Origin: Mucilaginibacter galii
GTDB taxonomy: Bacteria > Bacteroidota > Bacteroidia > Sphingobacteriales > Sphingobacteriaceae
Direction of reading: 5' to 3'
Assembly (NCBI RefSeq): GCF_014635825.1
Contig: NZ_BMDO01000002.1
Span: forward strand, 1 to 64,000
DNA length: 64,000 bases
Shown here: positions 684 through 61,712 of the stretch, piece by piece
Layout of the letters: every line of letters starts with the position of its first letter
Numbering within the stretch: position 1 is the first letter of the stretch
The notes under the pieces: model-generated
The model's input: only the letters and a program-made list of their open reading frames with translations
Told to the model about the DNA's origin: nothing
Database searches by the model: none
Position numbers and translations under genes: made by a program

Positions 684-1301
684 TTACTTCGTCTGCTGCG
701 ATACGTCCCTAATCAAAAACTGTTCAAATTCGTTATCCAGATCTATGCAACTTTGAACAAGCTTTTCAGCGATTGTTCTTACTTGCTCATTTTCTTCTCC
801 TAATATGGTCAATACTTCCGCTAATCCCATAATGTTCGCCAAAGGACGCCGGATATCATGGGATTGTTGTTGAGCGATGTTGCTTAACGTTTTAGTTAAA
901 AAGCGGATATGTTCTGCACGGGACTCGAAAGCTGTAATATCGTAACCGACGCCGATCACGCCATCTATGTTGCCGTGAGCATCAAAATGTGCTTTGTATT
1001 CCCAGTAGGTAATAATATATCCGCCTTTACCGTCCAACTTTCTGAGTGTAGCATTAAAAGTTTGATCGGGTTGTCCTACACATTTATTGTAAGTGATATA
1101 ACTTAACTCATAATCATCTGGGTGCAGGGCAAGTGCAGCCGACCGGATCTCGGAATGGTTATAGAATGAACTGTGCCGACTGATAAAATGATCATTCATG
1201 TAGACATAGTTGGCGCTACTATCAACTTTGACAAGGTAAAAATTTTTGGAGTCAGCTAATAACTGAACTGCCTTTTCATAAGATAAATTTTTAAAATCCA
1301 T
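684..1301 (-). CDS. PAS-domain protein ending in a histidine-kinase dimerisation helix, no ATPase domain
   Basis: 205 aa, predicted cytoplasmic, no signal peptide or membrane segment. Residues about 15-125 form a PAS fold (ending GVIGVGYDITAFESRAEH). Residues 140-195 resemble the DHp helices of HisKA kinases, with an H-box SHDIRRPLANIMG and phospho-acceptor candidate His148. The protein stops there: no N, G1 or G2 box of a HATPase_c domain follows, and none is seen in the other frames downstream. Short PAS-DHp proteins occur in Sphingobacteriaceae, so it may be a natural form and not a truncation. It could be phosphorylated in trans by a neighbouring kinase or act as a dimerisation partner; that is inference. 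It is last in a row of three same-strand sensory genes, 128 bp after the previous one. Confidence 0.8.
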   Translation of the reverse strand: MDFKNLSYEKAVQLLADSKNFYLVKVDSSANYVYMNDHFISRHSSFYNHSEIRSAALALHPDDYELSYITYNKCVGQPDQTFNATLRKLDGKGGYIITYWEYKAHFDAHGNIDGVIGVGYDITAFESRAEHIRFLTKTLSNIAQQQSHDIRRPLANIMGLAEVLTILGEENEQVRTIAEKLVQSCIDLDNEFEQFLIRDVSQQTK

Positions 1302-1429: not shown

Positions 1430-2749
1430 TTATATGTTATGCAACATTACCTTCTGTGGGATCATCGAGCATAAGGGCATGAGCAGGTAAAATGTACTTC
1501 CCTCGTTCTCTTTACTGGTAAACCCAATCTGACCACCTTGAATCTCCGTGAATTCTTTGCAAAGTACCAGCCCTAAACCTGCACCTTTTTCTTTCCCTGT
1601 CCCGAAGGTGGACTTTGCCGATAAAGAGAACAATCCCGGTTGCTTGAATAGTGGTATACCAGCCCCGGTATCTGTTATTGATAACAGGCAGTTGTCCTCC
1701 TTGATTTGTACATCGAAAGAGATTTTCCCACCGGGGTAAGTAAATTTAATCGCGTTGATCGCTAGATTACGGATGACGAGCTGGAGCATGTCCCTGTCGC
1801 CTAAAATGCAGATGTGATCACTAAGCTTATAGATGAACTCTATTCCTTTTTCCTCTGCTATGCCCTTCACTAGTTTAAGTGTTTGGTCAAGGGTGTCATA
1901 CAATCGTAAGTTGGACAATTTGACTTTGACAACTTCCATTTGTCCTTTTGTCCAGGCCAACACATTGGTCAGCAGATAAGCAGTATCCTTCGTGCGGTTC
2001 AGCAGTTGCTTCTGGATGCTTAGGCGCTCAGATTCTTCCAGGTTATAATCAGCGAGCAGTTCTAAAAAGCCCTGGATGGATGTTAATGGTTCTTTGAGGT
2101 CATGTGCCAGTATCGATAGCAATCGATCCTTAGTTTGATTGCTCTGTTCCAGTGCGGTCTCCTTACGCGAAGATTCGTCTTTCTCGCGGTAAAAAGCATT
2201 GCGGATATAGCTAGTGATCAACATTATCATCGCAGCAATGACGATATAAGTGTAACCAAAATCAATCAGTCGGCTTGTAGGCTCAGCATAGGTATTGATT
2301 ATCTGGTTGGGATAAGTATCCTCATAATACAACAAACCAAAAATTGTTATCACATTCAGCGGTAGCCAGATCCAGTACTGCCAAGCGGGAACAGTAGCCA
2401 AAGAAATTAAAAACGATAAAATGAAGATAGCATAGGTAGGACCTGAAATACCAGAATTGTAATAGTAGTTGATAACCAGCAGGGCAATATTGAGCAGTTG
2501 AAAAATGACCAAACAGATGTCGTATTTGCCTTTAAACCTGGATAAATAATAAAGTATGCAGACTAGGATAAAGACAAAGAACATCAGTATAGCCAATGCC
2601 GGCATATCCATTACATAGTTATATAGCGTATTAGACCCAAGTCCAAGTAACACGACTATGCAAACAGCATGAAAGATCCGGGATTCCAGTGTAGATGCTT
2701 CTGGATTACCAACCAAGTGAATCCAGTATTCTTTTAATCGGTGTATCAT
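1430..2749 (-). CDS. Membrane-bound sensor histidine kinase
   Basis: 439 aa. Residues about 25-185 contain roughly six hydrophobic segments with no large periplasmic loop, so the sensor is the membrane domain itself. A linker precedes a HisKA domain with H-box LLSILAHDLKEPLTSIQGF (His216). The HATPase_c domain shows N-box NLAINAIKF (Asn332), G1 box DTGAGIP (from Asp360) and G2 box GAGLGLVL (389-396), so the kinase core looks complete. It starts 54 bp downstream of the ethylene-receptor-like kinase and is probably co-transcribed with it. No response regulator lies nearby, so its partner is unknown. The signal cannot be read from the sequence. Confidence 0.88.
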   Translation of the reverse strand: MIHRLKEYWIHLVGNPEASTLESRIFHAVCIVVLLGLGSNTLYNYVMDMPALAILMFFVFILVCILYYLSRFKGKYDICLVIFQLLNIALLVINYYYNSGISGPTYAIFILSFLISLATVPAWQYWIWLPLNVITIFGLLYYEDTYPNQIINTYAEPTSRLIDFGYTYIVIAAMIMLITSYIRNAFYREKDESSRKETALEQSNQTKDRLLSILAHDLKEPLTSIQGFLELLADYNLEESERLSIQKQLLNRTKDTAYLLTNVLAWTKGQMEVVKVKLSNLRLYDTLDQTLKLVKGIAEEKGIEFIYKLSDHICILGDRDMLQLVIRNLAINAIKFTYPGGKISFDVQIKEDNCLLSITDTGAGIPLFKQPGLFSLSAKSTFGTGKEKGAGLGLVLCKEFTEIQGGQIGFTSKENEGSTFYLLMPLCSMIPQKVMLHNI

Positions 2750-2803: not shown

Positions 2804-4516
2804 TTAAGATTGAATCGTTTGATATAATTTTGATTGTAGTATTGCGCGACCATTTGTTTCAAACTGAGTTTCCTCTTTTTGAAACTTGATGCTGAAAGTG
2901 CTTCCAACCTCAGGTATACTATCTGCTTCAATTTGAGCACCCAGAGATTCAAGCTGTGTTTTAACCAGATACAACCCAACCCCTCTTGCGCCGGGATAGT
3001 TGTGAAAAGTGGTGTACAAATTAAATAGTTTGGAGCCATATTTTTCCAGGTCTATGCCTCGGCCGTTGTCCTTAAGTTCCAGTACCGTTCGTCCATCGTC
3101 GTTTATGTAAGAGTTGATCGTAAGCTGTAGCTGTTTATGGGTATTGCGGTATCGGATTGCGTTGGACACTAATTGTTCTATAATACTTTGCAGGTATACC
3201 TTAGAAAAATACACCTGCGGTATGCCTAAGTTACAGGATATTTGGATGTTAATACCATCAAATTGGGTACTTATCGCCCGTAACGATTCGCTGATCTCAT
3301 AATAAAGGTTTAATATTTCCTGCTCCATAACTTGATCACGGGCTTGGATGACATCTGCCAGATCATCTAAGGTAGTAGTTAAAGCTTTAGTTACTTGTCT
3401 CGTCATAAAGAGAAGATCAAGGTTTCCTTTATCGAGGTTTTCCGTACTCACCATATCGGTTAAAGCAGATAAGTTACTGGTATGATTGCGTATGTTATGT
3501 GACAGTACGTAACTGAAGTTTTTAAGCTGCTGCTTTTTTTCTTTCGTTACTGTTAATGCTGAAGTTAAGGCAAGTTCATGACTCTTGTAACGGTCAATGT
3601 CCATAAGTATCCCTCTGAGTTTAATTACTTCACCGGTTTCATTCTTAACAGGTTCACCGGTATGCCTGACCCAAACCATTTTTCCGCCTTGTGTCAAGGT
3701 TTGTACTTCGAGGTCCCATTTTTCACCAGCTGTGATTGCTCTATTCATAGCCTGCTCCAAACTTTCTGTATAAGGGTCTGGATAATACGAAGCGATGTCA
3801 TCCTCATATATATTACGGTCATAGGGAAGTTCCAGGATATCATAAACGGTTTTTGACCAGGTGCGTTTCCCGGAAACCAAATCTAGTTCCCATCCACCTA
3901 CACAAGCAATTCTACCGGCCTCGGACAAAAGAAACTCATTAGCCGCTAACCGTTCTTCAGTAACCTTCCGTTTATCAATCTCTGCTTCCAGGTCGGTTAA
4001 GGAGCGCAGCCGTAAGATAGAAGGGAATACCCGGTATATCTGATATACCGTGGCTAAGGATATTACCGCGGTTGCTAAACGCAGGAGTGCACTGAAGCGG
4101 TATGCTGGCCACCAAAAAATAAGTGCATCGGCAAAGTGTGTTAAGCCGCAAAGCATAATAAAACCTATAAAGAATAAAAATATGCGATGAAAGGGAATAT
4201 CCGGCCTCTTTCTAAGTAAGCGGTAAAGGAGAAAAGGAATGGCAAAGTAAGCCGCCCAAATAGCGATATCAGAGACAATATAAAGCCAGCCATGAAAGTC
4301 TGTCCAGTTCCCGCAATGCCACCGGGCAGGGAAATCAGCAGTACTAAATATCTTATTAAAGAAATCAAGTATTTGATTACTTATAGCAATATGGGGCGGG
4401 GCAGCAACAGCAGGTATTGGCTGTCCACACATTGGGCCACAGGAAGATGGGAAGTTTAGAGATGACGCGGTATTTGCCTGTATCGTAGCGTCACCGGCGA
4501 TAGGAGTTGTTAACAT
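2804..4516 (-). CDS. Hybrid of ethylene-receptor-like membrane domain, PAS domain and histidine kinase
   Basis: 570 aa. After a Cys-containing N-terminal stretch (Cys26, Cys30, Cys68), residues about 78-170 form three membrane helices that match the ethylene-binding domain of ETR1 and cyanobacterial Etr1. Asp83, Tyr90, Ile93-Pro94, Cys123 and His127 reproduce ETR1 Asp25, Tyr32, Ile35-Pro36, Cys65 and His69 with identical spacing; Cys65 and His69 bind the Cu(I) that holds ethylene. The motif CGLTH corresponds to plant CGATH. A PAS domain follows (about 190-310), then a DHp helix with FSYVLSHNIRNHTSNLS (His340), and a HATPase_c domain with N-box LVSNAIRY (Asn452), DNGRGI (Asp483) and GVGLYLV (from Gly512). 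First gene of the three-gene sensory row, divergent from the helicase gene. The fold assignment is strong; ethylene or copper binding is inference, and another small ligand is possible. Confidence 0.87.
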   Translation of the reverse strand: MLTTPIAGDATIQANTASSLNFPSSCGPMCGQPIPAVAAPPHIAISNQILDFFNKIFSTADFPARWHCGNWTDFHGWLYIVSDIAIWAAYFAIPFLLYRLLRKRPDIPFHRIFLFFIGFIMLCGLTHFADALIFWWPAYRFSALLRLATAVISLATVYQIYRVFPSILRLRSLTDLEAEIDKRKVTEERLAANEFLLSEAGRIACVGGWELDLVSGKRTWSKTVYDILELPYDRNIYEDDIASYYPDPYTESLEQAMNRAITAGEKWDLEVQTLTQGGKMVWVRHTGEPVKNETGEVIKLRGILMDIDRYKSHELALTSALTVTKEKKQQLKNFSYVLSHNIRNHTSNLSALTDMVSTENLDKGNLDLLFMTRQVTKALTTTLDDLADVIQARDQVMEQEILNLYYEISESLRAISTQFDGINIQISCNLGIPQVYFSKVYLQSIIEQLVSNAIRYRNTHKQLQLTINSYINDDGRTVLELKDNGRGIDLEKYGSKLFNLYTTFHNYPGARGVGLYLVKTQLESLGAQIEADSIPEVGSTFSIKFQKEETQFETNGRAILQSKLYQTIQS

Positions 4517-4870: not shown

Positions 4871-7800
4871 ATGCAAGAAACTATACTTCCTAAATTAGAA
4901 GCCTCAAGAAAAGAACTTTTAGATCTTGGGATGCGCAACACTTTACTTAATTATAAGAGTCCAAAAGCAAGAGGCCTTCATATTGTACAAGAGCAGTCTA
5001 GTAGCATATTTAATATTCTTGTACGGCAAAATAAAGCCATGACATTTCTTGGTCGTCCGGGAAAAGAAGAGGATGAAACATTGTTTGAACTTCCTGCACT
5101 TAGCGAACCGGAATTGCAGGATGCTTATAATGATACCCGGCTTCAGACCAATGATACAGAACAAAAGCTGCAAACCAAAATACTCAATACCTACTATTTC
5201 GCAAAAACTAGTATTGAAGAGCAGGGATTGAACATATTGTACCTTTCGATGGGAATGCTCAATTGGTTTGAAAAGGGGAATACGGAAGAATGCAGGTTAG
5301 CACCTCTGATTTTAGTACCAGTAACTTTGGAGCGTTCAAGTGCAAACGAGCGCTTTCGCTTACGCTACTCAGGAGCGGAGATAGGAGCCAATTTGTCCTT
5401 ACAGGCTAAAATGATGGTCGATTTTAACATTACCATTCCGGATCTTCCCGAGCAGGAAGAACTGGACCTTAGCAGCTACATAAATGATATAGCGCACCGC
5501 ATAGGGCATCAGGAGAATTGGAAAGTAGATACAGATGCAATAGAGCTAGGCTTTTTTTCATTTGGTAAGTTCATGATTTATCACGATCTGGACAGCACTA
5601 AATGGCCCGATGCAAAAAAGCCATATAATAATACTATCCTTCAATCGCTATTCGGTGGCGGGTTTATGGAACCGCAGCCTTCAGTTGGAGAAGACCACTA
5701 TCTGGATACTGAGACTAATGCTAATGAACTATTACATGTAGTTGATGCAGACAGCTCACAGGTAATTGCAATGCTTGCTGTACATGAGGGGCGAAATATG
5801 GTTATCCAGGGACCTCCCGGTACCGGCAAATCTCAGACCATAACTAACCTTATTGCTAATGCTGTGGGAAATGGTAAAAAAGTATTGTTTGTAGCTGAGA
5901 AAATGGCGGCGTTAGAAGTGGTGAAACGAAGGCTTGACAATATTAATCTTGGCGAAGCATGCTTAGAATTGCATAGCCATAAAGCAAATAAGCGAGAACT
6001 TCATGATGGGCTTAAGAAAGTCCTTGAACTGGGAAAACCCACATTAGCGCATCTTGAAGAAGAAGTAAAAATTTTAGGTTCCCTGATCAATGAATTGAAT
6101 ACATATTGCAGTGAAGTTAACTCCCAAATAGCACAGAGTGGACATTCAGCGCAGGAGGTAATTGGAGAACTGCTCAAAATATCAGGATCCTATAAAAATT
6201 ATAAATTCCCACGATTGCTAATTGAGGATCTTTCTGCCTGGACTGTTTCTAAGATGAAAACAGCGGAGTTATTGTCCGAGCAAATACAGACGAGGCTTAC
6301 AAAGATAGGCCAGCCGGAAAAGCTTTTATTTCATGGTACTTCTTTAACTATTTTTTTACCAAGGGACGAAGAAATTACAAAAGAATATTTAACTGCGGCT
6401 ATTAATAGCACAACGGATTTGCTCAAATCAGGAGAGGATATAGCAGCCTCTCTGTTACTTCCTCTTCCTATAGATATAGCATCTATTGTAAAAGTAGCTG
6501 AAATAGCAACATTAGCTTCAAAAAATCCGGGTACTGCCTCAATGGCTATTAATGACAGTGCCTGGCTTAATCATCAGGCAGATATTAAAGACCTATTTGA
6601 AGCAGGTATCCGCCTATCTGAATTACGCCAAAAATACGACCCGCTGTTTATCCCCGAAGCATGGGAACAGAATGTGCTCGAAATACGGCAAAATTTAGTA
6701 GCCCATGGAGGAAAGTGGTATAAGTTTTTAATAGGCGATTATAAAAAGAGCGTTAAACAACTGGCTGGTTTGCTAAATACATCTATGCCAGATGACCTGG
6801 ATAATAAACTGGTGTATGTTACAGCTTTAATGGACGGAAAGCGCTTAGCTGCTTCAATACAATCTTTAGAGCCTCTTGCACAAAGGCTTTTTGGAAACCA
6901 ATGGCAAAAGTTACGCAGTAACTGGCAGGTACTTAAAGATGCATCGGTCTATCTGCAATCGGTACATCAGGCAATCCAACAGGAAAAAATACCAACGGCT
7001 TTTCTTTCTTATCTTGATAAAAATGATTCTACGGAAATAGCTGGTAAAAATGCAGTCTTATTAAAAGAAAATCTAACTAAGCAACACGAAATTATAGCAA
7101 CACTTTTAAATAAGATGGGCTATAATGATCCGCTTTTTACAAATAACTCATTATTGGAACAACTCACTGTACTACAAAAATGGTTTACCGACTTACCTGA
7201 GATTCATGAGGCTGTATCATGGAATGTACTCAAAGAAAATATTGTGAAACAAGGTGCCAATTACCTTTTAACGGCGATAGAGGGTTGGCCGGACGCATCT
7301 CTTCATTTACAAACAGCGCTCAAAAAAACATGGTATGACTATCTTATAGAACAGGCTATGGTCAATAACCCTGCCTTAAGAAAATTTGAGCGTTCCAGCC
7401 ATGAAGAAGTGATAGAGAAATTTAAAAAGCTGGATATCCTAAACCAATATTACAACAGGGCAAAAGTTGCACTCAAGCATTGGGAGGGCGTCCCTAAGCA
7501 AGAAGGTGGCGGCCAGATCAATATCCTCAGGAGTGAATTTAACCGTAAAGCCAGGCACATGCCTATACGAAGGTTAATGCAGGAAGCAGGATTGGCCATA
7601 CAGGCGATTAAGCCGGTTATCATGATGAGCCCGATGTCTATCGCTAACTTTCTCCCTCCAGATAGTATTGAGTTTGACCTTGTGATATTCGATGAAGCGA
7701 GCCAGGTACGCCCGGTTGATGCATTAGGAGCAATATTAAGAGGCAAACAAATTGTTGTTGTAGGCGATACAAAACAAATGCCGCCAACCAGTTTCTTTGA

Positions 7801-9514
7801 TAAGATGAACACCGAGACTGATGATGAGGAAAATGTAACGGCAGACATGCAAAGCATTTTAGGAATGTGTGATGCGCAAGGAACTCCTCAGCGCATGTTG
7901 CGCTGGCATTACCGCAGCAGGCACGAATCTTTAATCAGCTTGTCTAACCAGGAATTCTATGAGAACAAACTGGTAATTTTTCCAAGCCCGGGCTCCAAAT
8001 ACAGAATGGGGCTTATCTTTCACCATCTCCCGGATACATATTATGATAAAGGTAAAACACGGACTAACCCTAAAGAAGCAGAAAAAGTAGCTGATGCCGT
8101 TATTGAACATGCACTGCAGTATCCAAAGCTTAGCTTGGGCGTGGTTGCCTTTAGCACTGCCCAAATGCAGGCCATACAAAATGCTCTTGAAATAAGGAGA
8201 AGGATGAACCCTGATGTTGAAAATTTCTTCAGGAGCCATACTGATGAACCATTTTTTGTAAAAAATCTTGAGAACGTGCAGGGTGATGAAAGGGATGTAA
8301 TCTTTATAAGTATAGGCTATGGAAGGTTAGAAGATGGGAAAGTCCCGATGAGTTTTGGCCCTTTAAATAATGAGGGCGGTGAACGCAGGTTAAACGTACT
8401 CATAACGAGGGCAAAAAGCCGTTGCGAGGTGTTTACCAATATAACAGCTAGCGACATTACACCGGGACCTAATGCTAAATTTGGTATTCGCTCCCTTAAA
8501 AGCTTCCTATACTTTGCAGAGCATGGCAAGTTTGAAAGCGACAAAGAAGTTATTGAGGTAAAACATCAACCCTTTGAACAGGTTGTTGCAGATAGCCTTC
8601 GAAATGAAGGATATACTGTAAGGGAAAAAATAGGATCTGCAGGTTTTTATATTGATTTAACAATTGTAGATAATAATAACCCAGGAAGGTATTTGTTAGG
8701 GATAAGCTGCGATGGTAAATCGTATGCTTCGGCGAAATCAGCGCGTGACCGTGATCGCCTTAGAAATGCAGTACTGGAGGGTATGGGCTGGAAATTGTAC
8801 AATGTTTGGAGTACCGATTGGTTCCGAAACCCTTCAAAAGAGTTACGCTTATTAATAGCTACTATTGAAAAAGCCAAAGTAGAGGTAGAGCACAATGATG
8901 CTATTGAAGAGGAAATGCAGGAAGAGCTAAAAAGCCTTATACGCGAAGCTCCACAAGAAATAACGATATTATTGCCTACTTATCAGTCTGCAATACTATC
9001 AAAAGAAATAGCCGGAGGTGAATTGCATTTGTTTCCTTTAGGAAAATTAAGCAAGTGGATTGAAGACGTAGTAAAGGTGGAAAGCCCTGTGCATTTTGAA
9101 GAAATGGCACGAAGGATAGCTGATTCAAATGGCATATCAAAAATAGGCAGCCGGGTACGCGCCACACTTGTAGAAGCCTGTGACTATGCTGCCAAAATGG
9201 GCATTATTGTAAAGAAAGGAGATTTCTTATGGTATCCAGAAATGCAGGTTCCTTATATAAGAGAAAGAAGCTCCCTGCCGTCCAGTGCTCGTAAAATTAG
9301 CCTTATATCTCCTGAAGAAATTAATTTAGCCATTAAAAAAGTGGTAGAAAATTCAATAGCCATACAAGCAGACAATGCAGTGCCTCTCATTGCTAAACTA
9401 TTCGGATTTGGCAGGGTGACTGAAGACATGCGCAAATATCTTATTGAATCAATCGACAATGCGTTAATTAACAAGATTATAGTCAAAGAAAATGATTTTT
9501 TGAAATGTGTTTAG
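4871..9514 (+). CDS. DUF4011 / superfamily I helicase / Vsr-like nuclease / DUF3320 protein (hhe-type)
   Basis: 1547 aa, cytoplasmic. Residues about 8-250 match DUF4011 (LLDLGMRNTLLNYKSPKARG). An SF1 (UPF1-like) helicase core follows: Walker A GPPGTGKS at 314-321, Walker B DEASQ at 941-945, then GDTKQMPP, a C-terminal motif VQGDERDVIFIS and NVLITRAKSR. The Walker A and B blocks are separated by about 600 residues of helical insert. Residues about 1230-1330 are a Vsr/MTES_1575-type PD-(D/E)xK nuclease: Glu1236, Asp1262 and GISCDGKSY with Asp1281, then ARDRDRLR and STDWFRNP. The end (about 1400-1547) resembles DUF3320. This architecture is, as I recall, that of the single-gene anti-phage factor hhe reported among predicted bacterial defence genes. 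All catalytic motifs look intact, so an active protein is expected. It stands alone; neighbours on both sides are unrelated. Confidence 0.9.
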   Translation: MQETILPKLEASRKELLDLGMRNTLLNYKSPKARGLHIVQEQSSSIFNILVRQNKAMTFLGRPGKEEDETLFELPALSEPELQDAYNDTRLQTNDTEQKLQTKILNTYYFAKTSIEEQGLNILYLSMGMLNWFEKGNTEECRLAPLILVPVTLERSSANERFRLRYSGAEIGANLSLQAKMMVDFNITIPDLPEQEELDLSSYINDIAHRIGHQENWKVDTDAIELGFFSFGKFMIYHDLDSTKWPDAKKPYNNTILQSLFGGGFMEPQPSVGEDHYLDTETNANELLHVVDADSSQVIAMLAVHEGRNMVIQGPPGTGKSQTITNLIANAVGNGKKVLFVAEKMAALEVVKRRLDNINLGEACLELHSHKANKRELHDGLKKVLELGKPTLAHLEEEVKILGSLINELNTYCSEVNSQIAQSGHSAQEVIGELLKISGSYKNYKFPRLLIEDLSAWTVSKMKTAELLSEQIQTRLTKIGQPEKLLFHGTSLTIFLPRDEEITKEYLTAAINSTTDLLKSGEDIAASLLLPLPIDIASIVKVAEIATLASKNPGTASMAINDSAWLNHQADIKDLFEAGIRLSELRQKYDPLFIPEAWEQNVLEIRQNLVAHGGKWYKFLIGDYKKSVKQLAGLLNTSMPDDLDNKLVYVTALMDGKRLAASIQSLEPLAQRLFGNQWQKLRSNWQVLKDASVYLQSVHQAIQQEKIPTAFLSYLDKNDSTEIAGKNAVLLKENLTKQHEIIATLLNKMGYNDPLFTNNSLLEQLTVLQKWFTDLPEIHEAVSWNVLKENIVKQGANYLLTAIEGWPDASLHLQTALKKTWYDYLIEQAMVNNPALRKFERSSHEEVIEKFKKLDILNQYYNRAKVALKHWEGVPKQEGGGQINILRSEFNRKARHMPIRRLMQEAGLAIQAIKPVIMMSPMSIANFLPPDSIEFDLVIFDEASQVRPVDALGAILRGKQIVVVGDTKQMPPTSFFDKMNTETDDEENVTADMQSILGMCDAQGTPQRMLRWHYRSRHESLISLSNQEFYENKLVIFPSPGSKYRMGLIFHHLPDTYYDKGKTRTNPKEAEKVADAVIEHALQYPKLSLGVVAFSTAQMQAIQNALEIRRRMNPDVENFFRSHTDEPFFVKNLENVQGDERDVIFISIGYGRLEDGKVPMSFGPLNNEGGERRLNVLITRAKSRCEVFTNITASDITPGPNAKFGIRSLKSFLYFAEHGKFESDKEVIEVKHQPFEQVVADSLRNEGYTVREKIGSAGFYIDLTIVDNNNPGRYLLGISCDGKSYASAKSARDRDRLRNAVLEGMGWKLYNVWSTDWFRNPSKELRLLIATIEKAKVEVEHNDAIEEEMQEELKSLIREAPQEITILLPTYQSAILSKEIAGGELHLFPLGKLSKWIEDVVKVESPVHFEEMARRIADSNGISKIGSRVRATLVEACDYAAKMGIIVKKGDFLWYPEMQVPYIRERSSLPSSARKISLISPEEINLAIKKVVENSIAIQADNAVPLIAKLFGFGRVTEDMRKYLIESIDNALINKIIVKENDFLKCV

Positions 9515-12542: not shown

Positions 12543-13691
12543 TTAATTGATAGGATCGGGCGCCGAAGGGTGAGCCGGATCATATACCGCAACACCTACA
12601 CGTGAGTCGGCACAGCCATAGTATAAGAACCATTTTTTCTTGAAATACACCATACCTTCAATAAATACGGTTCCGGCCGGATACTGTCCGCTTTTTTCAA
12701 AACTTTCCATAGGCCTCAAAAATGGTACATCTAACCGTGTAATAAACTTTGACGGGTCGGCTTTGTTAAACAAGGCTTGGCCGGCGCAATATGTATTTGA
12801 ATTAAATCGCTTATCGCCATCGTCGCCAGCTTTATTTTTGCCGTTATAAAATAAAACAATGCCTTTCGAGGTGAGTAAGGCAGGTGGACCGCATTCTGTT
12901 AATTCACTATCGAAGTATCCTTTCCGTGGCGAAAAGAGTTCTTTGAGAGAACCGTCGTTGTTCACCACCGGCAACCAGTCTACCAGGTTCGTAGAGGTAG
13001 CCGCGTATACATGCAGTTCGCCCCAATACATCCAGTACTTGCCATTAATTTTGGTAACCACTTGTTTGCCGTTTACTACCTTAGTTAATATCGATGCCGA
13101 TTTATGTGGTACGTTTACAAATTTACCTTGATAAGCATCTTCAAAAATAGGCCCATGCTTAGTCCACTTTTTTAAATCTTTAGATGTAGCAACACCTAAA
13201 CGGGGCACATCACGGTTCCATTGTGTGTAAAACACCACGTAAGTACCATTGACTGTTACAGCAAGGCGCGGGTCTTCGCAGCCACCAGGCCATTCGTATT
13301 TCTTCTGATTATCATTAGCCGGATAAAAAACAGGTTTGGTGCTACGGTTAAAATGATAACCGTCTGCGCTGGAAGCATAACCTAAACGTGAGGTACGAAA
13401 ACCTATGCCGATACCATAACGGTCTTCTGCACGGTATAACACCACTACTTTGTTCTTGTATAGAGCTGCCCCGGGGTTAAACGTATCATTAGCTTCCCAG
13501 GCCACCTGCTTTTGCTGAATAGGGTCGTAAAAGGTAGCTGTGGTATCGGGCTTGATGATGGGGTTAAGCCCGACGGGACGCTTAAAGCCACCCATAGCCC
13601 ATTTAGGCAGTTTATTTTCCTGTGCATAAACCCCTGCCGGAATTAGCAAAGCAAGAACTGCTATTTTAACGAATATTATGATTTTTTTCAT
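12543..13691 (-). CDS. Secreted GH130-family glycoside hydrolase or phosphorylase
   Basis: 382 aa. A signal peptide (MKKIIIFVKIAVLALLIPAG, cut after VYAQ) predicts export to the periplasm or beyond. The body is a five-bladed propeller of the GH130 type: FNPGA at 71-75, LYRAED at 85-90, GGCEDPRL at 136-143, HKSAS and a final FLYYGCADSRVGVAVYDP. GH130 members cleave or phosphorolyse beta-mannosides; exported members in Bacteroidota loci are usually hydrolases acting on beta-1,2- or beta-1,4-linked mannose. Which applies here cannot be decided by eye. Start set at 13691 because it gives a complete signal peptide; a start 18 bp upstream is possible. A terminator-like hairpin lies just upstream, so expression depends on read-through from the SusCD operon. 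Confidence 0.82.
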   Translation of the reverse strand: MKKIIIFVKIAVLALLIPAGVYAQENKLPKWAMGGFKRPVGLNPIIKPDTTATFYDPIQQKQVAWEANDTFNPGAALYKNKVVVLYRAEDRYGIGIGFRTSRLGYASSADGYHFNRSTKPVFYPANDNQKKYEWPGGCEDPRLAVTVNGTYVVFYTQWNRDVPRLGVATSKDLKKWTKHGPIFEDAYQGKFVNVPHKSASILTKVVNGKQVVTKINGKYWMYWGELHVYAATSTNLVDWLPVVNNDGSLKELFSPRKGYFDSELTECGPPALLTSKGIVLFYNGKNKAGDDGDKRFNSNTYCAGQALFNKADPSKFITRLDVPFLRPMESFEKSGQYPAGTVFIEGMVYFKKKWFLYYGCADSRVGVAVYDPAHPSAPDPIN

Positions 13692-13724
13692 AGCGTTTAA
13701 TGCATACAAGCATGCCTGCTTTTA

Positions 13725-13782
13725 AATAAAAAGCCCATACCAGTAGGCCTAAACAAAAACGTTCACAGGCTACCGGTATGGG
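13725..13782 (-). terminator. Hairpin followed by T-run between LamG and GH130 genes
   Basis: Read on the minus strand, CCCATACCGGTAG pairs with CTACTGGTATGGG across a loop of about 23 bases, followed by CTTTTTATTT. This has the form of an intrinsic terminator inside the operon. It would lower expression of the GH130 gene relative to SusC, SusD and the LamG protein. Confidence 0.7.
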
Positions 13783-13808
13783 GTTAATAGTTTTAATATA
13801 GCCAGCGA

Positions 13809-14819
13809 TTATGGTTGCTCAGTGGTGTAAATAGACAACACTTCTGCATCGGTTAAAGCACGGCTGTAATAACGGATATCATCCATCGCACCTCTGAAGT
13901 ACGACTGCCCTTTTAAACTTTTTGGTAAATTTTGACCAATCACCAAATTAACAGGCGTAGGCAATGTTACAGGCGTGCCGGTTACAGCAGCCGTTTTTAC
14001 CAATTTATCGTTTACATAAAACTTCATCGTTCCGTTTATATAAGATACGCCAATGTATGTCCAAACATCTTGAGGAACAACACCAGGATTGCTATCTACA
14101 TCACGATAACCGTCGTCAACGTGAAGGGTTAAAAACATGAAGTTGCTGCCCTGTAACTGGAACTTGAATCCGTTGTAAGAGTTTAAAGCGATCATATAGT
14201 TGTCCGGGTTAGTTTCACGGCGTTTCACCCACATGGTAATAGTAAACTCTTTCGGGTTAAGATCAGTAGTATAAGGTATTTCAATGTTAGAACCGTTTGC
14301 AAAATCGAACGCGCTGTTGGCCGCGTTGTAACGGTCGGCAACCAATTTAGGCAAAGTATTACCATCGGTGGTTGAGTTGATATAACCCGTCATTAGTATA
14401 CCATTATGGCCATGACCGGATACGTCGTTTGCGTTACCTGTAAAGTCCCATTTAGCAATCAGGTTATCCGAAGATACATCCTGAATCTGTCTTGATTTAA
14501 AAACACCTAAAGCCCGGTTCAAATTGGCGGTTGCGTTATCAACTTCACGCTGACTGTATTGCGTAGCGTTTTTTGTTGCTGTAGCTAAATCAATTGCTTT
14601 CTTAAGGTCCGCACGCGAACCTACCGAATATAATCCAGCTCTTTTACCTTCAGTTGAGTTAGTGTACAAAGCAGTTGCTGCATCAATGGCTGTGCTGATC
14701 GTAGCCTTATCCGAGGCGGCCGGTTGCTGCGTATTAGCATCTTTTTTGCAGGAACTAATACAGCTAAGCAATACAATTAATATTGCCCATGTGCAAGAAT
14801 ATTTGATGTATGTTTTCAT
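13809..14819 (-). CDS. LamG-domain surface lipoprotein of the polysaccharide utilisation locus
   Basis: 336 aa. Signal peptide with lipobox LSCISSC, so a lipoprotein, probably on the cell surface. Residues about 35-115 form a helical segment resembling the FIVAR/DUF4972-like repeats of Bacteroidota glycan-associated proteins (DKATISTAIDAATALY ... NLNRALGVFKSRQ). Residues about 120-336 are a concanavalin/LamG-like jelly roll (LIAKWDFTGNANDVSGHGHNG ... GAMDDIRYYSRALTDAEV). No catalytic residues are recognised. Its place directly after SusD is that of a surface glycan-binding protein (SusE/F-like); this is inference from position and fold. The gap to SusD is 20 bp. Confidence 0.8.
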   Translation of the reverse strand: MKTYIKYSCTWAILIVLLSCISSCKKDANTQQPAASDKATISTAIDAATALYTNSTEGKRAGLYSVGSRADLKKAIDLATATKNATQYSQREVDNATANLNRALGVFKSRQIQDVSSDNLIAKWDFTGNANDVSGHGHNGILMTGYINSTTDGNTLPKLVADRYNAANSAFDFANGSNIEIPYTTDLNPKEFTITMWVKRRETNPDNYMIALNSYNGFKFQLQGSNFMFLTLHVDDGYRDVDSNPGVVPQDVWTYIGVSYINGTMKFYVNDKLVKTAAVTGTPVTLPTPVNLVIGQNLPKSLKGQSYFRGAMDDIRYYSRALTDAEVLSIYTTEQP

Positions 14820-14839
14820 TACTTAAACTTTAATATGGG

Positions 14840-16342
14840 TTATAAACCTTTGTTTGTAGAGCGTTCGCTTGCAGGAATAGGGAAAAACCTGTTATTGTTA
14901 TAATTGAAATTAGGCTTATCGCGCAGTGCGTTGCTGGCATAAGTACTACCATACCGTATAATGTCAAAATAACGCTGAAACTCCAGTGCAAGCTCTGAGC
15001 GCCTTTCACGACGTATAATATCACGCAGCTGTGTTTGGCTGGTTGTAGTTACATCCGGTAACAAGCCTGCCGGAACCGTGCCTGCGCCAGTTAGTGTATT
15101 ATCATACAAATAGCTTTCCCTTGCTCTTTTTCTTACTTTGTTTAACGGAATTAATGCAGCCGTGCTATTTCCACTCTCATTAAGCGCTTCTGCTTCAATC
15201 AGCAAAACATCGGCAAAGCGTATGGCCTCTACATTAAGGTTACCATCTCCGCGGGTTGCGGCAGGAATTTCTGTAAGCGGCTGTATTTGCTTCTTGGTCA
15301 CATAACCTGTTGATGTCCAGCTGGGATCGAATGGAGTGCCAAAAAATGATTGACCTGCTCTGCCCACGGTATAATCAAGCCTTGGATCAACTACGCCTGA
15401 GGCTGTTTTCTCAAAATTATCAACCAGACTTTGAGTGGGTAAAAAGAACCCGTAACCATTTAATGCACCACGTGGTGCAAAAGACTGGTTCAAGCCATTG
15501 CCTTGCTTTGGGTTTAACCCTGCAGTGTGCAGTATAGAAAATATAGCTTCCGTGTTATTTTTAGTGGTGGCACTAAAATTATCTGTAAATTTTGGAGTAA
15601 GCGAATAAATACCAAGCGCTTCTACCTGTTGTGCAGTGGCTGCGGCTTGTGCGTACTTTTGTTCAAAAAGATAGCTTTTAGCCAGTAATGCAAGAGCTGC
15701 ACCTTTAGTAACCCGGCCTAAATCGGCACCCGACCAAGTACTGGGCAGTGCTGCTGAGGCCTCCGTACAGTCTTTCTCAATTTGTGCAAAAATCTGAGTC
15801 TGAGGTACTATTGGTGATTGTGTATTATCGGCTGTGGCAACGTTTAACCTCAGGGGTATATTACCGTAGCAATTAGTAAGTATAAAATAATAATACGCCC
15901 GTAAAAACTTAGCCTGAGCGGTAATAAGTGTTCTGCTGGCTTCGGGGATAGCGGTGTTGGCATTAGCAAGTCCGTTGAGCACAAAGTTGGCCTTTAATAC
16001 GCCATCGTAATATCTGGCCCACACACCTTCAACAGCCGAATTGTTGTTTAATATGTTAAACACATCAATTTGATCATAATCGGCCTGGTCGCCCGGTAAG
16101 CCACCTTTAACGGCATCGTCCGAAGATACGTCACCCAACACCCATATCGGATTTCCAGTGCCGCTTACAAAAGTAAGGGGTACATAGGCTGCGTTAACTG
16201 CTGCATTGGCATTGGCAACCGAAGTAAAGTATTTGTCTTGAGGATAATCGCCAAGAACCGGTTGATCGAGTATTTTTTTACAACTCGCTGCAGAAAGCAG
16301 TATTCCTGCTGATAAAGCGATGTATATATATTTTTTTAGCAT
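14840..16342 (-). CDS. SusD/RagB-family nutrient-binding outer-membrane lipoprotein
   Basis: 500 aa. Lipoprotein signal MLKKYIYIALSAGILLSAASC with the acylated Cys in AASCKK. The N-terminal SusD-like part (ILDQPVLGDYPQDKYFTS...) and the C-terminal RagB part (IIRRERRSELALEFQRYFDIIRYG, ending NNNRFFPIPASE) are both present at full family length. It forms the lid of the SusC pore and binds glycan at the cell surface. Start placed at 16342, 22 bp after SusC ends; the upstream in-frame codons would spoil the signal peptide. Confidence 0.95.
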   Translation of the reverse strand: MLKKYIYIALSAGILLSAASCKKILDQPVLGDYPQDKYFTSVANANAAVNAAYVPLTFVSGTGNPIWVLGDVSSDDAVKGGLPGDQADYDQIDVFNILNNNSAVEGVWARYYDGVLKANFVLNGLANANTAIPEASRTLITAQAKFLRAYYYFILTNCYGNIPLRLNVATADNTQSPIVPQTQIFAQIEKDCTEASAALPSTWSGADLGRVTKGAALALLAKSYLFEQKYAQAAATAQQVEALGIYSLTPKFTDNFSATTKNNTEAIFSILHTAGLNPKQGNGLNQSFAPRGALNGYGFFLPTQSLVDNFEKTASGVVDPRLDYTVGRAGQSFFGTPFDPSWTSTGYVTKKQIQPLTEIPAATRGDGNLNVEAIRFADVLLIEAEALNESGNSTAALIPLNKVRKRARESYLYDNTLTGAGTVPAGLLPDVTTTSQTQLRDIIRRERRSELALEFQRYFDIIRYGSTYASNALRDKPNFNYNNNRFFPIPASERSTNKGL

Positions 16343-16363
16343 AATTGTTAAATTTAGAGGCAA

Positions 16364-19300
16364 TTAAAAATTAGCGTTTATACCAAAGGTGATGGTGCGC
16401 GCCGATGGATAGGTACCAAAGTCTATACCTACAGCTCTTACACCATCGCCCAATGAATTGTTGTTAACGGCAATTTCTGGGTCTATACCGGTGTACTTGG
16501 TTACAGTAAACACGTTTTGTACGCTGGCAAACACCCGCATGTTAGATATTTTAAAACGGTTAATGAGCTTAGAGTTAAAGGTATAACCTGCCTGCACATT
16601 TTTAAGTCTCAAATAAGATCCGCTTTCTAAAAAGCGGGTAGAGGGCTGCTTATTGTTAACCGCACCGTTCCATGACAAACGCGGAAATTCGTTAGTGCTG
16701 CCTTCGCCGGTCCAGCTTTGTGTGGCTATACGCTCGGTAATGTTAAACGCACGGTAGAAGCCTTCAATATCTGTATTAATCTGGTTGTAAATTTTATTGC
16801 CGTTCACACCCTGAAAAAACAAGCTTACATCAAACCCACTATATGAAAAATTAGTAGTTAATCCGTAAGTGAATTTAGGAATAGGGCTGCCTACATAGCT
16901 GCGATCATTAAAATCTATAATTCCGTCAGGTACACCGTTCGGGCCGCTAATGTCTTTAAACATAACATCGCCGGGCTGTATGCCAGGGCCTTGGTAAGCA
17001 TGAGTAAACACCTGTTGGGCATTTTGGAAGATCCCCTCTTGCTGTAAAAGGAAAAAAGAGCCTATAGGCTGGCCTACTCCAGTTTGTGTGGCATAATAAT
17101 TATTATCGATACGGCCACCAACCAGCGGACTGCCGCCTGCTAATGAAGTTACCCGGTTTTTAATTGTTGCAAAGTTGCCAAGTACCTCATACTTAAATTT
17201 ATTCATGCTGCCCCTATAACTAAGCTCAAATTCAAACCCCTCATTGCGCACACCGCCCGAATTAACATTGGCACTGCTTACGCCGCCTGCACTGGTAGGT
17301 AGCTGCGGTGGCAACAATAGGCCCTTGGTGTTTTTGCGGTAATAGTCTGCCGAAAACGATAACTTATTATTAAATAAACCTAAATCTAAGCCAATATCTG
17401 CTTGTGTCTGGGTTTCCCATTTTACCATAGGGTTGCCTAACAATACTATAGAGTTTCCCTGATTGCTTGCACCGTTAAAGGGATAAAAATTAACCTGGCG
17501 TACTAACGTAGCATAATCATAGTCGCCAATTGACTGATTACCCAGAGAGCCAAGGCCTGCACGCAATTTTAACAGCGATATTGGTTTTACATTTTTCAAG
17601 AACTCTTCCCGATCAATGCGCCAGCCTACTGAACCACCATAAAAATTACCGTAGCGGTCAGATGGGTCTAAGCGTGAGGAGCCGTCGCGTCTTACATTAA
17701 AGGCAGCTAAGTATTTATCTGAAAAGGTATAGTTAACCCTTGCAAAAAGTGAACTTAATGCCCAGTGGGTTTGACCACCACCGTTTTGTTGTATTCCTAA
17801 TCCGTTACCTAAGTATTGAAACTCGCTGCTTTGATTCGGATAGTTAGTACGCGAGCCGCCTAACGAGGTAGAGTTGCTTTTTATAATTTCGGTACCTGCT
17901 AAAAATGTAAACACATGTTTTTTAGCCAGGGTTAAATTATAAGTAGCTGTGTTTGTCCAGTTATAATCAAAGTAGTTATTATTTGATTGCGCCAGGCTGT
18001 TTGGCGAGTTTAAAAAGCGATCAATACCCCAGGTAGCAAAAAATTGCTTGTAATCAACTATGCGGAAATTGGTTCCGAAATCGGTACGTATCTTTAAGTT
18101 TTTAATCGGATTAATTTCCAGGTAAACGTTTCCTAATAAGGAGTAGGTGTTAAAATTGCGGTCATAATTGTCTGCAAAGCCTACCGGGTTAAGTCCGTCT
18201 CCAAAAAATTCAGGGTTTGTAGGGATGTCTACAAATTGCCCGTTGGCATTGTAAACGGGTGTAGCCGGTGTTCTGAACAAGGCATAACGCAGAACGCTTG
18301 CACCAGGGTTACCATCGCCAAAACCATCGCCCGATGTACCTACCTGCCTGTTTTTCGAATAGCCTAAATTCATATTCACGCCTACCGTAAATATCTTAGA
18401 TATGTTACTGTTTATAGCCGTGCGTAAGTTAAGACGATCGAAAGAAGAGTTTTTGATCAATCCATTTTGTTTAAAATAGTTGGCCGATACAATATAAGTA
18501 GTGTTTTCGCCGCCGCCACTTAACGAAACCTGCGCATTGGTAATAGGAGCAGGCTTTAACACCTCGCGCTGCCAGTCAACATCGGGCAACGCACCAATTA
18601 TGTTGGCCGGAATAGCTGCACGACCATCGTTAGCTGCGGCAGTATTGTATGCGACTACGTATTGTTGTGTATTAGCCATCTTAACAAGGTGTTGCGAAGT
18701 TTGCACACCAGTGTACGCATTTACATTGATTTTTGGCGTACCAGTCTTGCCTTTTTTAGTGGTTACAAGAACCACCCCGCTAGCCGCACGGGCACCATAT
18801 ATAGCAGCCGAGGCGGCATCCTTGAGTACGCTAATGCTTTCAATGTCGTTTGGCGAAATTTGATTGATACCATTTGGTGTAGGCACCCCATCAATTACAT
18901 ATAAGGGATTGTTGTCACCAATGGTTCCAATTCCCCTTATGCGTACACTGATAGCATCGCCGGGTGCACCGGTTTGTTGGGTAACCGCCACGCCTGCAGC
19001 TTTACCTTGCAAAATCTGATCGGCCCCGCCAACAGGCAGGTTGGCAATATCGCTGCTTTTTACAACGGCCACTGCGCCGGTAAGGTCAACCTTGCGTTGC
19101 GTTCCATAACCTACTACCACTACATCGTTAAGCGATGTAGTAGATGCAACAAGATTGATGGTCATTTCCTTACTAAAATCGGCGGGAATACTCACCGGAT
19201 CGTAACCAACGTACTTAATATCAAGTATTGCACCGTCCGGGGCGTTAATACGGAAAATACCGTTAACATCGGTAGTGGCACCACCGGTGCCGCCTTTTAC

Positions 19301-19459
19301 CTGTACCGTAGCACCAATAATGTTTTCTTTGGTTTGGCTGTCTATTATCCGGCCGGTAACCGGTTTAGTTTGTGCCTGGCTGCGTAGCGCCAAACAGCAC
19401 ATGAAAAGAAAACAGCCTATGGCTATCCTCCATTCCTTTTTAAGTGTAAAAATCATCAT
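16364..19459 (-). CDS. SusC/RagA-family TonB-linked outer-membrane transporter
   Basis: About 1031 aa. Signal peptide ending ALRSQAQ, then a carboxypeptidase-regulatory-like domain (VTGRIIDSQTKENIIGATVQVKGG), a TonB-box region, a plug domain (VVVVGYGTQRKVDLTGAVAVV ... IRGIGTIGDNNPLYVIDGVP ... KDAASAAIYGARAASGVVLV) and a 22-strand barrel ending in an aromatic residue (GINANF). It imports oligosaccharides with TonB energy, paired with the SusD protein. No N-terminal STN domain is seen, so it is not coupled to an anti-sigma factor. Two ATG codons (19459 and 19456) are possible starts. Transcription from the operator-bearing promoter at 19612-19643 would give a leader of about 140 nt. Confidence 0.95.
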   Translation of the reverse strand: MMIFTLKKEWRIAIGCFLFMCCLALRSQAQTKPVTGRIIDSQTKENIIGATVQVKGGTGGATTDVNGIFRINAPDGAILDIKYVGYDPVSIPADFSKEMTINLVASTTSLNDVVVVGYGTQRKVDLTGAVAVVKSSDIANLPVGGADQILQGKAAGVAVTQQTGAPGDAISVRIRGIGTIGDNNPLYVIDGVPTPNGINQISPNDIESISVLKDAASAAIYGARAASGVVLVTTKKGKTGTPKINVNAYTGVQTSQHLVKMANTQQYVVAYNTAAANDGRAAIPANIIGALPDVDWQREVLKPAPITNAQVSLSGGGENTTYIVSANYFKQNGLIKNSSFDRLNLRTAINSNISKIFTVGVNMNLGYSKNRQVGTSGDGFGDGNPGASVLRYALFRTPATPVYNANGQFVDIPTNPEFFGDGLNPVGFADNYDRNFNTYSLLGNVYLEINPIKNLKIRTDFGTNFRIVDYKQFFATWGIDRFLNSPNSLAQSNNNYFDYNWTNTATYNLTLAKKHVFTFLAGTEIIKSNSTSLGGSRTNYPNQSSEFQYLGNGLGIQQNGGGQTHWALSSLFARVNYTFSDKYLAAFNVRRDGSSRLDPSDRYGNFYGGSVGWRIDREEFLKNVKPISLLKLRAGLGSLGNQSIGDYDYATLVRQVNFYPFNGASNQGNSIVLLGNPMVKWETQTQADIGLDLGLFNNKLSFSADYYRKNTKGLLLPPQLPTSAGGVSSANVNSGGVRNEGFEFELSYRGSMNKFKYEVLGNFATIKNRVTSLAGGSPLVGGRIDNNYYATQTGVGQPIGSFFLLQQEGIFQNAQQVFTHAYQGPGIQPGDVMFKDISGPNGVPDGIIDFNDRSYVGSPIPKFTYGLTTNFSYSGFDVSLFFQGVNGNKIYNQINTDIEGFYRAFNITERIATQSWTGEGSTNEFPRLSWNGAVNNKQPSTRFLESGSYLRLKNVQAGYTFNSKLINRFKISNMRVFASVQNVFTVTKYTGIDPEIAVNNNSLGDGVRAVGIDFGTYPSARTITFGINANF

Positions 19460-19611
19460 AAGCAAATTTTAATGAAGTAAAGTGAATTATAGGGTTATTC
19501 AGATTAATAGTGATAAAGTTTATCCTGAATTGGTAAAAGGCGTTATTAAGTAACCCGCAGGTTGTCCTGATGAATTATAATAGGTAATCATATGTTGTAT
19601 AATTGGTAAGT

Positions 19612-19643
19612 CAAACCTATGAAAACTAAACGGTTTTAGCAAA
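19612..19643 (-). promoter_or_regulatory. Promoter of the SusC operon with embedded LacI-type operator
   Basis: On the minus strand: -33 TTTG (19643-19640), the 14-bp sequence CTAAAACCGTTTAG (19639-19626), six bases, then -7 TAGGTTTG (19619-19612). Spacer is 20 nt. Layout and operator match the ROK kinase promoter, with a single base difference in the 14-mer. A repressor bound here would cover the core promoter. The LacI-family gene begins right beside it. Confidence 0.75.
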
Positions 19644-19659
19644 ATGTAAAAAAAAAACT

Positions 19660-20685
19660 CTAAAGTTTTTTTGACGACGATTGCCTGATGATTAATTCGG
19701 GCTTCAAAATGATTTCAACAGGTGTAATTTGCTGATCGCCTTTGGCGTTAAGGTTCTTAAAAAGTGTTTCAATCAAGTGTTCCGAAAGTTCTTTCATGGG
19801 TTGCGCAACGGCACTGATAGGTGGATTAAAGACTTTAAAGAAAGCATGATCGTCAAAAGCAACTACACCTATTTGTTCTCCAATTACAAGCTGTTTTTGT
19901 TGAAGTGCTTCAAAGCCTCTTAATGCTAAATAATTGGTGGCAAAAAGTATAGCATCAATATTCTTGTTTTGTGTTAAGTAATCTATAATTTGTTGCACCA
20001 GTTTTTGGGGCTTTGCGCTAAACTCTACCTCAAGCAAATGCGGTATAAGTCCAGCGTCATCAATTGCTGCCTGGTAGCCTCTTAGCCGGTCGGCCATTTG
20101 TGTTTGCCCAGAATCCAGCGTTACAAAGGCAATATGCTTGTACTGTTGCTTTGCCAGGTGTTCTATGGCAGTTTTTGCACCATTATAGTTATCAATACCC
20201 ACATAATTTGTTTTCAATTGCGGGAAATAACGGTCAAATAACACTGTAGGCAGGCCCTCGCTTAACAAGGAACTCACTTCATGTTCAATATCTTTAGGTG
20301 GAGTAACAATATAGCCATCTACATTACGCCCCCTCAGCATTCTTATAAGCTCTATCGTTTTTTTGGTATTGTTCTCTGTGCTGCAATAAATTATTTTATA
20401 ACCTTTTTTATATGCTTTTTCTTCTATAAGGCGTGCTACACTCGCAAAAAAAACGTCTGCAATATCTTCTACCACCAAGCCTATAATTCTTGACTTACCT
20501 GTACGCAAACTTTGCCCAACGGTGTTAGGGTTATAATTCTTTTCTTTTACATAATCCAACACCCGCTGTGATAGCTTATCGCTAATACGCATCTCTTTTG
20601 CCTTACCGTTTAAAATGAATGATATTGTAGTAATTGAAATATTCAATTCCCGGGCAATATCATTCATAGAGATTTTTTTACTCAT
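19660..20685 (-). CDS. LacI-family transcriptional regulator of the sugar locus
   Basis: 341 aa. Residues 5-50 form the LacI helix-turn-helix and hinge (MNDIARELNISITTISFILN ... VLDYVKEKNYNPN), followed by a periplasmic-binding-protein-like sensor domain (about 60-335; GLVVEDIADVFFASVARLIEE, YVGIDNYNGAKTAIEHL, VAFDDHAFFKVFNPPISAVAQP). It probably represses the SusC and ROK promoters, both of which carry the same palindrome, until a sugar from the locus binds. A -7 element TATATTTG lies upstream on the minus strand (20725-20718); no matching operator is seen there, so autoregulation is not evident. Confidence 0.9.
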   Translation of the reverse strand: MSKKISMNDIARELNISITTISFILNGKAKEMRISDKLSQRVLDYVKEKNYNPNTVGQSLRTGKSRIIGLVVEDIADVFFASVARLIEEKAYKKGYKIIYCSTENNTKKTIELIRMLRGRNVDGYIVTPPKDIEHEVSSLLSEGLPTVLFDRYFPQLKTNYVGIDNYNGAKTAIEHLAKQQYKHIAFVTLDSGQTQMADRLRGYQAAIDDAGLIPHLLEVEFSAKPQKLVQQIIDYLTQNKNIDAILFATNYLALRGFEALQQKQLVIGEQIGVVAFDDHAFFKVFNPPISAVAQPMKELSEHLIETLFKNLNAKGDQQITPVEIILKPELIIRQSSSKKL

Positions 20686-61314: not shown

Positions 61315-61322
61315 TAAATTTG
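61315..61322 (+). promoter_or_regulatory. -7 promoter element of the response-regulator gene
   Basis: TAAATTTG fits TAnnTTTG and ends 6 bp before the ATG at 61329. Transcription would begin at or near the start codon, giving a nearly leaderless mRNA. A TTG at 61320 lies inside the box and cannot be the start. Confidence 0.55.
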
Positions 61323-61328
61323 GTCACA

Positions 61329-61712
61329 ATGTTCAATGGCTATAAAACCTGTTTACTGATAGACGATAATTACATCGATAATTTTGTGACGCGCAGAATA
61401 TTGGAAAGCAGTAATTTTGCCGAAAAAATTATTGTGCAACAATCTGCCGCGGCAGCCATTGACGCCATTAGAGACGGTTCTATTAGGCCAGATGTTATTT
61501 TTTTAGACCTGCGTATGCCTCTCATGAACGGCTTTGAGTTTTTGCAGGAATACGACAAACTGAAAGAACAGGACAAGAGCGCTACTAAAATATTCATGCT
61601 TTCTTCATCGTTAGACCCGGTTGATGTAAAGCGCTCGGGCCAAAATAAATACATTACCCAATTCATCCATAAACCGCTTACCCAAAAAATACTGGAAGAA
61701 CTAAGCGCATGA
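61329..61712 (+). CDS. Single-domain response regulator
   Basis: 127 aa. A receiver domain only: acidic pocket IDDN (12-13), phospho-acceptor Asp60 in VIFLDLRMPLMNG, then MLSSS with switch Ser and HKP with the conserved Lys. There is no output domain. It could serve as a phosphate carrier for the orphan kinases at the other end of the window or for kinases elsewhere; this is speculation. Its last codon overlaps the next gene by four bases (ATGA). Confidence 0.93.
   Translation: MFNGYKTCLLIDDNYIDNFVTRRILESSNFAEKIIVQQSAAAAIDAIRDGSIRPDVIFLDLRMPLMNGFEFLQEYDKLKEQDKSATKIFMLSSSLDPVDVKRSGQNKYITQFIHKPLTQKILEELSA

Follow-up and report, generated by a model that had tools for sequence, protein, structure and literature searches.

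The kinase gene and its ethylene-binding domain

A histidine kinase gene (P0001; 570 aa) was located at 2804..4516 on the minus strand of the window, the whole stretch of 64,000 nucleotides that was analysed in this study. The host is Mucilaginibacter, a soil bacterium of the Bacteroidota, which is the phylum that the initial annotation of the sequence had given. In the Pfam search, the ETR1_N/ethylene-binding domain (EBD) profile PF25487 matched residues 75-170 (4007..4294, minus strand) with a score of 108.9 bits (cut-off 27; E 1.5e-31), and positions 2-97 of the 97 in the profile were covered. A likeness of residues 78-170 to the EBD of ETR1 had been proposed beforehand, with this profile search as its check, and the significant match bears the proposal out. 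A PAS domain (PAS_3, residues 219-303; 3608..3862, minus strand) follows the membrane domain and precedes HATPase_c (residues 441-548; 2873..3196, minus strand), both by Pfam profile.

The catalytic motifs of the kinase are intact. They comprise the phospho-acceptor His340 in LSHNIR (3497..3499, minus strand), which is unchanged in 30 aligned full-length relatives, N452, DNGRG (483-487) and the GxGL of the G2 box (512-515). Pfam HisKA was not called on the window protein and was called on 15 of the 30 relatives. The PAS domain and complete histidine kinase (HK) described earlier were thus recovered, and the Pfam search gave no match in the window protein for GAF, the domain that marks plant ETR1/ERS1. 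The presence of PAS instead of GAF stands as an observation but is not new, because AzoEtr1 also has the layout EBD-PAS-HK (PMC11819568), and the window protein agrees with this AzoEtr1-type two-component arrangement. The protein genuinely belongs to the ETR1-type domain family, with the domain carried by a bacterial histidine kinase of the PAS kind.

All seven residues required by ETR1 for ethylene binding (D25, Y32, I35, P36, I62, C65 and H69) were found in the window domain. Six of them had been listed in the initial annotation with spacing identical to that of ETR1, and a gap-free alignment confirmed them (D83=D25, Y90=Y32, I93=I35, P94=P36, C123=C65 and H127=H69); the seventh, I62, corresponds to I120. 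The numbering of the ETR1 row in this alignment fits that of the published residues. The translated window (36,205 residues) contained the six-residue spacing once, and none of 200,000 shuffles of the window domain contained it. Among 126 EBD loci, counted without preselection for the seven residues, C65 was kept in 125, H69 in 123 and Asp25 in 122. Such conservation in nearly all loci indicates that the metal site is under selection, and the seven residues are near-invariant in the two groups of domains described below, type A and type B, alike.

AlphaFold predicted three membrane helices in ETR1-type order for the window domain, all encoded on the minus strand. Helix 1 (residues 73-103; 4208..4300) carries D83, W87, Y90, I93 and P94, helix 2 (residues 110-132; 4121..4189) carries I120, C123, H127 and D130, and helix 3 (residues 139-169; 4010..4102) has R146 at the position of ETR1 Lys91. 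The model of the isolated domain reached a pLDDT of 94.4 and a pTM of 0.81, with an additional short helix (45-54) ahead of the three long ones; the full-length model had a mean pLDDT of 80, with low confidence for residues 1-38. A solved EBD structure was found neither by sequence nor by fold in the PDB copy searched, and the fold search with the full-length model returned kinases only. This result agrees with the published statement that the ETR1 membrane domain has no experimental structure at high resolution (PMC13012798).

Distribution, gene neighbourhood and response regulators

A scan of GTDB genomes yielded at least 545 confirmed relatives among at least 583 matching stretches. In the genomes sampled, an EBD above the cut-off was present in 18/61 from the genus, 12/151 from the family and 21/395 from the phylum, and the named carriers among the matches listed included Dyadobacter, Niastella, Flavisolibacter, Fulvivirga, Zavarzinella and Cerasicoccus. 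The EBD kinase gene is therefore accessory and patchy, yet of a common kind. The initial annotation overstated the singularity of the window gene, given the number of relatives in GTDB and a second copy in the same genome; bacterial EBDs are known from many phyla. Plant-associated life, which had been offered as the reason for such a receptor, gains no support from a distribution that is not only plant-linked and includes Fulvivirga, Cerasicoccus, planctomycetes and others. Two weak PF25487 matches (L020 and L150) appear to be unrelated proteins. Short EBD kinases of Mucilaginibacter and Pedobacter (L006, L009, L011, L014, L021 and others) form a separate clade with a different kinase core and without an adjacent regulator.

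The genome holds 2 EBD copies. The second (G000:C6:300436-301888; L001, L128; 415 aa) resembles the window kinase in its type-A EBD, a two-Cys motif (CGTNC) and the kinase type, but it has no PAS domain and is overlapped by a gene for a 133-aa response regulator. A homologous single-domain response regulator is the next gene in 51 of 116 EBD loci, including this second copy; the total of 116 contains 7 repeat views of a single gene as well as some truncated loci. In most close relatives the regulator gene and the EBD kinase overlap by 1-14 bases, and most PAS-type relatives in Mucilaginibacter adjoin a CheY-like regulator gene.

Beside the window gene, no adjacent single-domain response regulator was present in the first 12 kb of the window, and none adjoins either of its sisters, from M. 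lacusdianchii (L064) and genome G002 (L019). The three proteins belong to three distinct species and form a 100/100 clade (stem 0.62, tip 0.68) that nests inside a regulator-coupled group in the tree, which indicates that the clade lost or moved its regulator. Both sisters share the PAS domain with the window kinase and differ from it in sequence (52-56% identity), in gene neighbours and in a Val at the I62 position. This Val, the long branch of the clade and the regulator not found in the neighbourhood would agree with a window copy that is decaying or uncoupled, with its regulator lost and ethylene-specific signalling gone. Such decay is nevertheless highly improbable, since the frame is open, the seven EBD residues and the kinase motifs are intact, and a regulator-less form kept by three species in a fully supported clade is unexpected for a dying gene.

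Two genes downstream are candidate links to the EBD kinase. A second histidine kinase (1430..2749, minus strand) lies 54 bp downstream, at the place of the usual regulator, and a 205-aa protein with a PAS domain and a phospho-acceptor but no ATPase domain is encoded at 684..1301 (minus strand). Eight other Mucilaginibacter genomes encode homologues of the latter (193-228 aa, with similar open frames; one has an internal stop), and a paralogue is present in the same genome (G000:C1:1101022); the protein looks like a member of a stable kinase-less family, not a broken gene. A single-domain response regulator at 61320-61712 (plus strand), flanked by a TolC-like outer-membrane gene and a gene of 288 aa, has 31% identity to the EBD-coupled regulator and is a candidate partner of the EBD kinase.

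A search for neighbours shared across the regulator-less clade found none; the neighbours in the window are not kept in the sisters, which makes a pathway claim impossible. None of the annotated genes nearest to the window gene was a copper gene. All matches to the ACC deaminase profile were sub-threshold and the Cu-ATPase match was below the cut-off, so they provide no argument for a copper or ethylene pathway. Divergent from the EBD kinase gene, 4871-9514 (plus strand) encodes a 1547-aa DUF4011/helicase/MTES_1575 nuclease protein with a full-length match (2032 bits) to the PADLOC candidate defence protein PDC-S37. Further along, a sugar-use cluster at 12543-20685 (minus strand) contains GH130 phosphorylase, SusD and TonB-dependent (SusC-like) genes and a LacI regulator; an MFS transporter and a gene resembling sugar kinases adjoin it.

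Two groups of sensor domains and the outer cysteines

Bacterial EBDs fall into two groups by tree and by residues, with branch supports of 94/94 and 96/90* for the split. Type B is marked by PHGxCYxW and occurs in cyanobacteria, Azospirillum and some Bacteroidota. Type A is marked by the WPxRWxCGxW and HGW motifs, includes the window domain, and was found in Sphingobacteriaceae, Chitinophagaceae, most of the Cytophagales recovered, planctomycetes and Verrucomicrobiota; the GTDB scan was seeded from type A and does not show how the two groups compare in number. AzoEtr1 is type B, and the window domain does not stand in the subgroup of this proven ethylene binder. AtETR1, whose residues served also for numbering, entered the tree as one row, and its placement is unsure because of its long branch, which bars a claim on the origin of the plant domain; this branch and the shortness of the domain also make the deeper order unsure. 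Among the open-access papers searched, none on type-A proteins was found.

At least four positions distinguish type A. Trp occupies ETR1 position 29 (Ala29 in ETR1, Trp87 in the window) in 95/108 type-A loci and 83/93 distinct domains, and Gly or Phe in 11/108 loci. Among the 93 distinct domains, Asp or Glu was found at position 72 (Asp130 in the window) in all 93, Arg or Lys at position 82 in 92, and Arg at position 91 (Arg146 in the window) in 82; these residues are rare or absent in type B. In the published model of ETR1, position 29 points into the core of the helix bundle, and a Trp placed there significantly reduced the helix content of ETR1 (PMC6586836). The type-A Trp thus suggests that the helix core is packed differently and that the pocket may be altered. 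Asp130 sits about one turn from His127 on helix 2, and its conservation there could shift metal or ligand preference.

Type A might accordingly bind a different small ligand, such as another alkene, CO or oxygen, with Trp87 and Asp130 reshaping its Cu(I) site. The well-supported separation from the AzoEtr1 group and the near-fixed residues at 29 and 72, of which Trp at 29 disturbs ETR1, agree with such a change. We consider it rather unlikely, since the seven binding residues are identical to those of ethylene receptors and the Trp is not absolute, as the loci with Gly or Phe demonstrate.

Conserved cysteines lie ahead of the first membrane helix, in an N-terminal CGPMC motif (Cys26 and Cys30; 4427..4441, minus strand) and in Cys68-Gly-Asn-Trp71 (Cys-x-x-Trp; 4304..4315, minus strand). 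The Cys of Cys-x-x-Trp was kept in 122/126 and the Trp in 123/126 EBD loci, and the motif is unchanged in 60 aligned type-A domains and present in AzoEtr1. The pattern C-x2-3-C was found in 21/22 genus loci and 8/9 named Mucilaginibacter loci (overlapping sets), the exceptions being L004 and L052 with C-x4-C. Its near-constant distance of 37-42 residues before Cys68, within an otherwise hardly conserved stretch, and its conservation indicate that the N-terminus is translated and support a function of the N-terminal cysteines. The pair is missing in 7/8 Dyadobacter proteins, and the N-terminal extension is mostly missing in the Chitinophagaceae found. The initial annotation had suggested that Cys26, Cys30 and Cys68 might replace the disulphide cysteines of ETR1. 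The set exists and is conserved, but the Cys68 motif is general to bacterial EBDs, and the idea was already published for the lone N-terminal Cys of cyanobacterial receptors (PMC6682694). The outer cysteines could form a disulphide, take up copper or serve in redox gating.

These roles lead to a reading in which the kinase answers copper supply, or copper plus redox state, and not ethylene. Cu(I) would be bound at Cys123/His127, and Cys26/Cys30, lying outside the membrane, would gather Cu(I) or act as an oxidation sensor. The two-Cys motif conserved in Mucilaginibacter, the conserved Cys68, the additional Asp130 near the metal ligands and the broad spread, including taxa without an obvious ethylene source, are consistent with a copper sensor. 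It is unlikely, however, because the ethylene residues that do not bind copper (Asp, Tyr, Ile, Pro and Ile) are kept as well, most other genera lack the two-Cys motif despite a kept copper site, and the nearest annotated neighbours include no copper gene. A wider proposal, which we regard as speculative, is that type A as a whole has a repacked metal pocket and senses a non-ethylene ligand or is redox/copper-gated, with an outer two-Cys motif in Mucilaginibacter and the window gene a regulator-less offshoot. The large branch to which it would apply spans Bacteroidota, Planctomycetota and Verrucomicrobiota and carries Trp29, Asp72, Arg82 and mostly Arg91.

A putative copper-dependent receptor compared with known systems

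The window kinase is probably a receptor that depends on Cu(I), binds ethylene or a small ligand resembling it, and signals to an unlinked regulator. The PF25487 match, the conservation of the metal site, the three-helix model, the kept kinase motifs, the precedent of AzoEtr1 with the same layout and the regulator adjoining many EBD loci argue for this reading; Trp at position 29, Asp130, and the lack of both an adjacent regulator and a known ethylene-linked gene argue against it. We infer the copper, the ligand, the direction of the signal and the partner from these features as follows. The three membrane helices would hold Cu(I) via Cys123 and His127, and Asp83, Tyr90, Ile93, Pro94 and Ile120 would complete the site. 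Binding of ethylene or another Cu(I)-binding small pi-ligand would alter the copper coordination, and helix 3 would relay the signal through a coiled coil and the PAS domain. Autophosphorylation of His340 would then change, with the ligand lowering kinase activity by analogy with ETR1 and SynEtr1. The phosphoryl group would pass to a response regulator presumably encoded at another locus, since the window gene lacks the CheY-like neighbour that its close relatives usually have.

The first interpretation of the gene was reasonable, and sequence cannot settle it; the window kinase may sense ethylene and is a member of a large bacterial branch. The two-group split, the genus-wide two-Cys motif and the regulator-less three-member clade are new here. 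Among bacteria, ethylene sensing has so far been proven in cyanobacteria and Azospirillum. If type A binds ethylene, sensing reaches hundreds of Bacteroidota and planctomycetes from soil, plant-associated and aquatic habitats; if it does not, the group is a natural experiment on which residues beyond the seven determine the ligand that a Cu(I) site accepts. The short bacterial EBD could also serve as a target for structure work.

Among known systems, AzoEtr1 of Azospirillum brasilense, an EBD-PAS-HK protein, binds ethylene in yeast and depends for its function on the Asp and Cys (PMC11819568). Its sequence was recovered at L044:2962-4539 (525 aa), and it shares with the window kinase the seven EBD residues followed by PAS and histidine kinase, and Cys-x-x-Trp ahead of helix 1. 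It differs in its type-B EBD with Gly at 29, Ser at 72, Lys at 91 and the PHGxC motif, in an overlapping response-regulator gene, and in sequence (~35% domain identity to the window EBD). Plant ETR1/ERS1 have in common with the window kinase the three-helix EBD, the seven residues, outer cysteines before helix 1 and a histidine kinase core, whereas the window kinase has PAS for GAF, no receiver, Trp87 for Ala29 and Arg146 for Lys91. In the plant receptors the cysteines belong to a disulphide-linked dimer; their possible counterparts in the window protein are Cys26, Cys30 and Cys68, conserved in the genus. SynEtr1 (Slr1212) and the Geitlerinema receptors, likened here by description, have extra GAF or light-sensing domains and resemble the window protein as bacterial EBD kinases, some with PAS, that are reported to carry one conserved outer Cys (PMC6682694).
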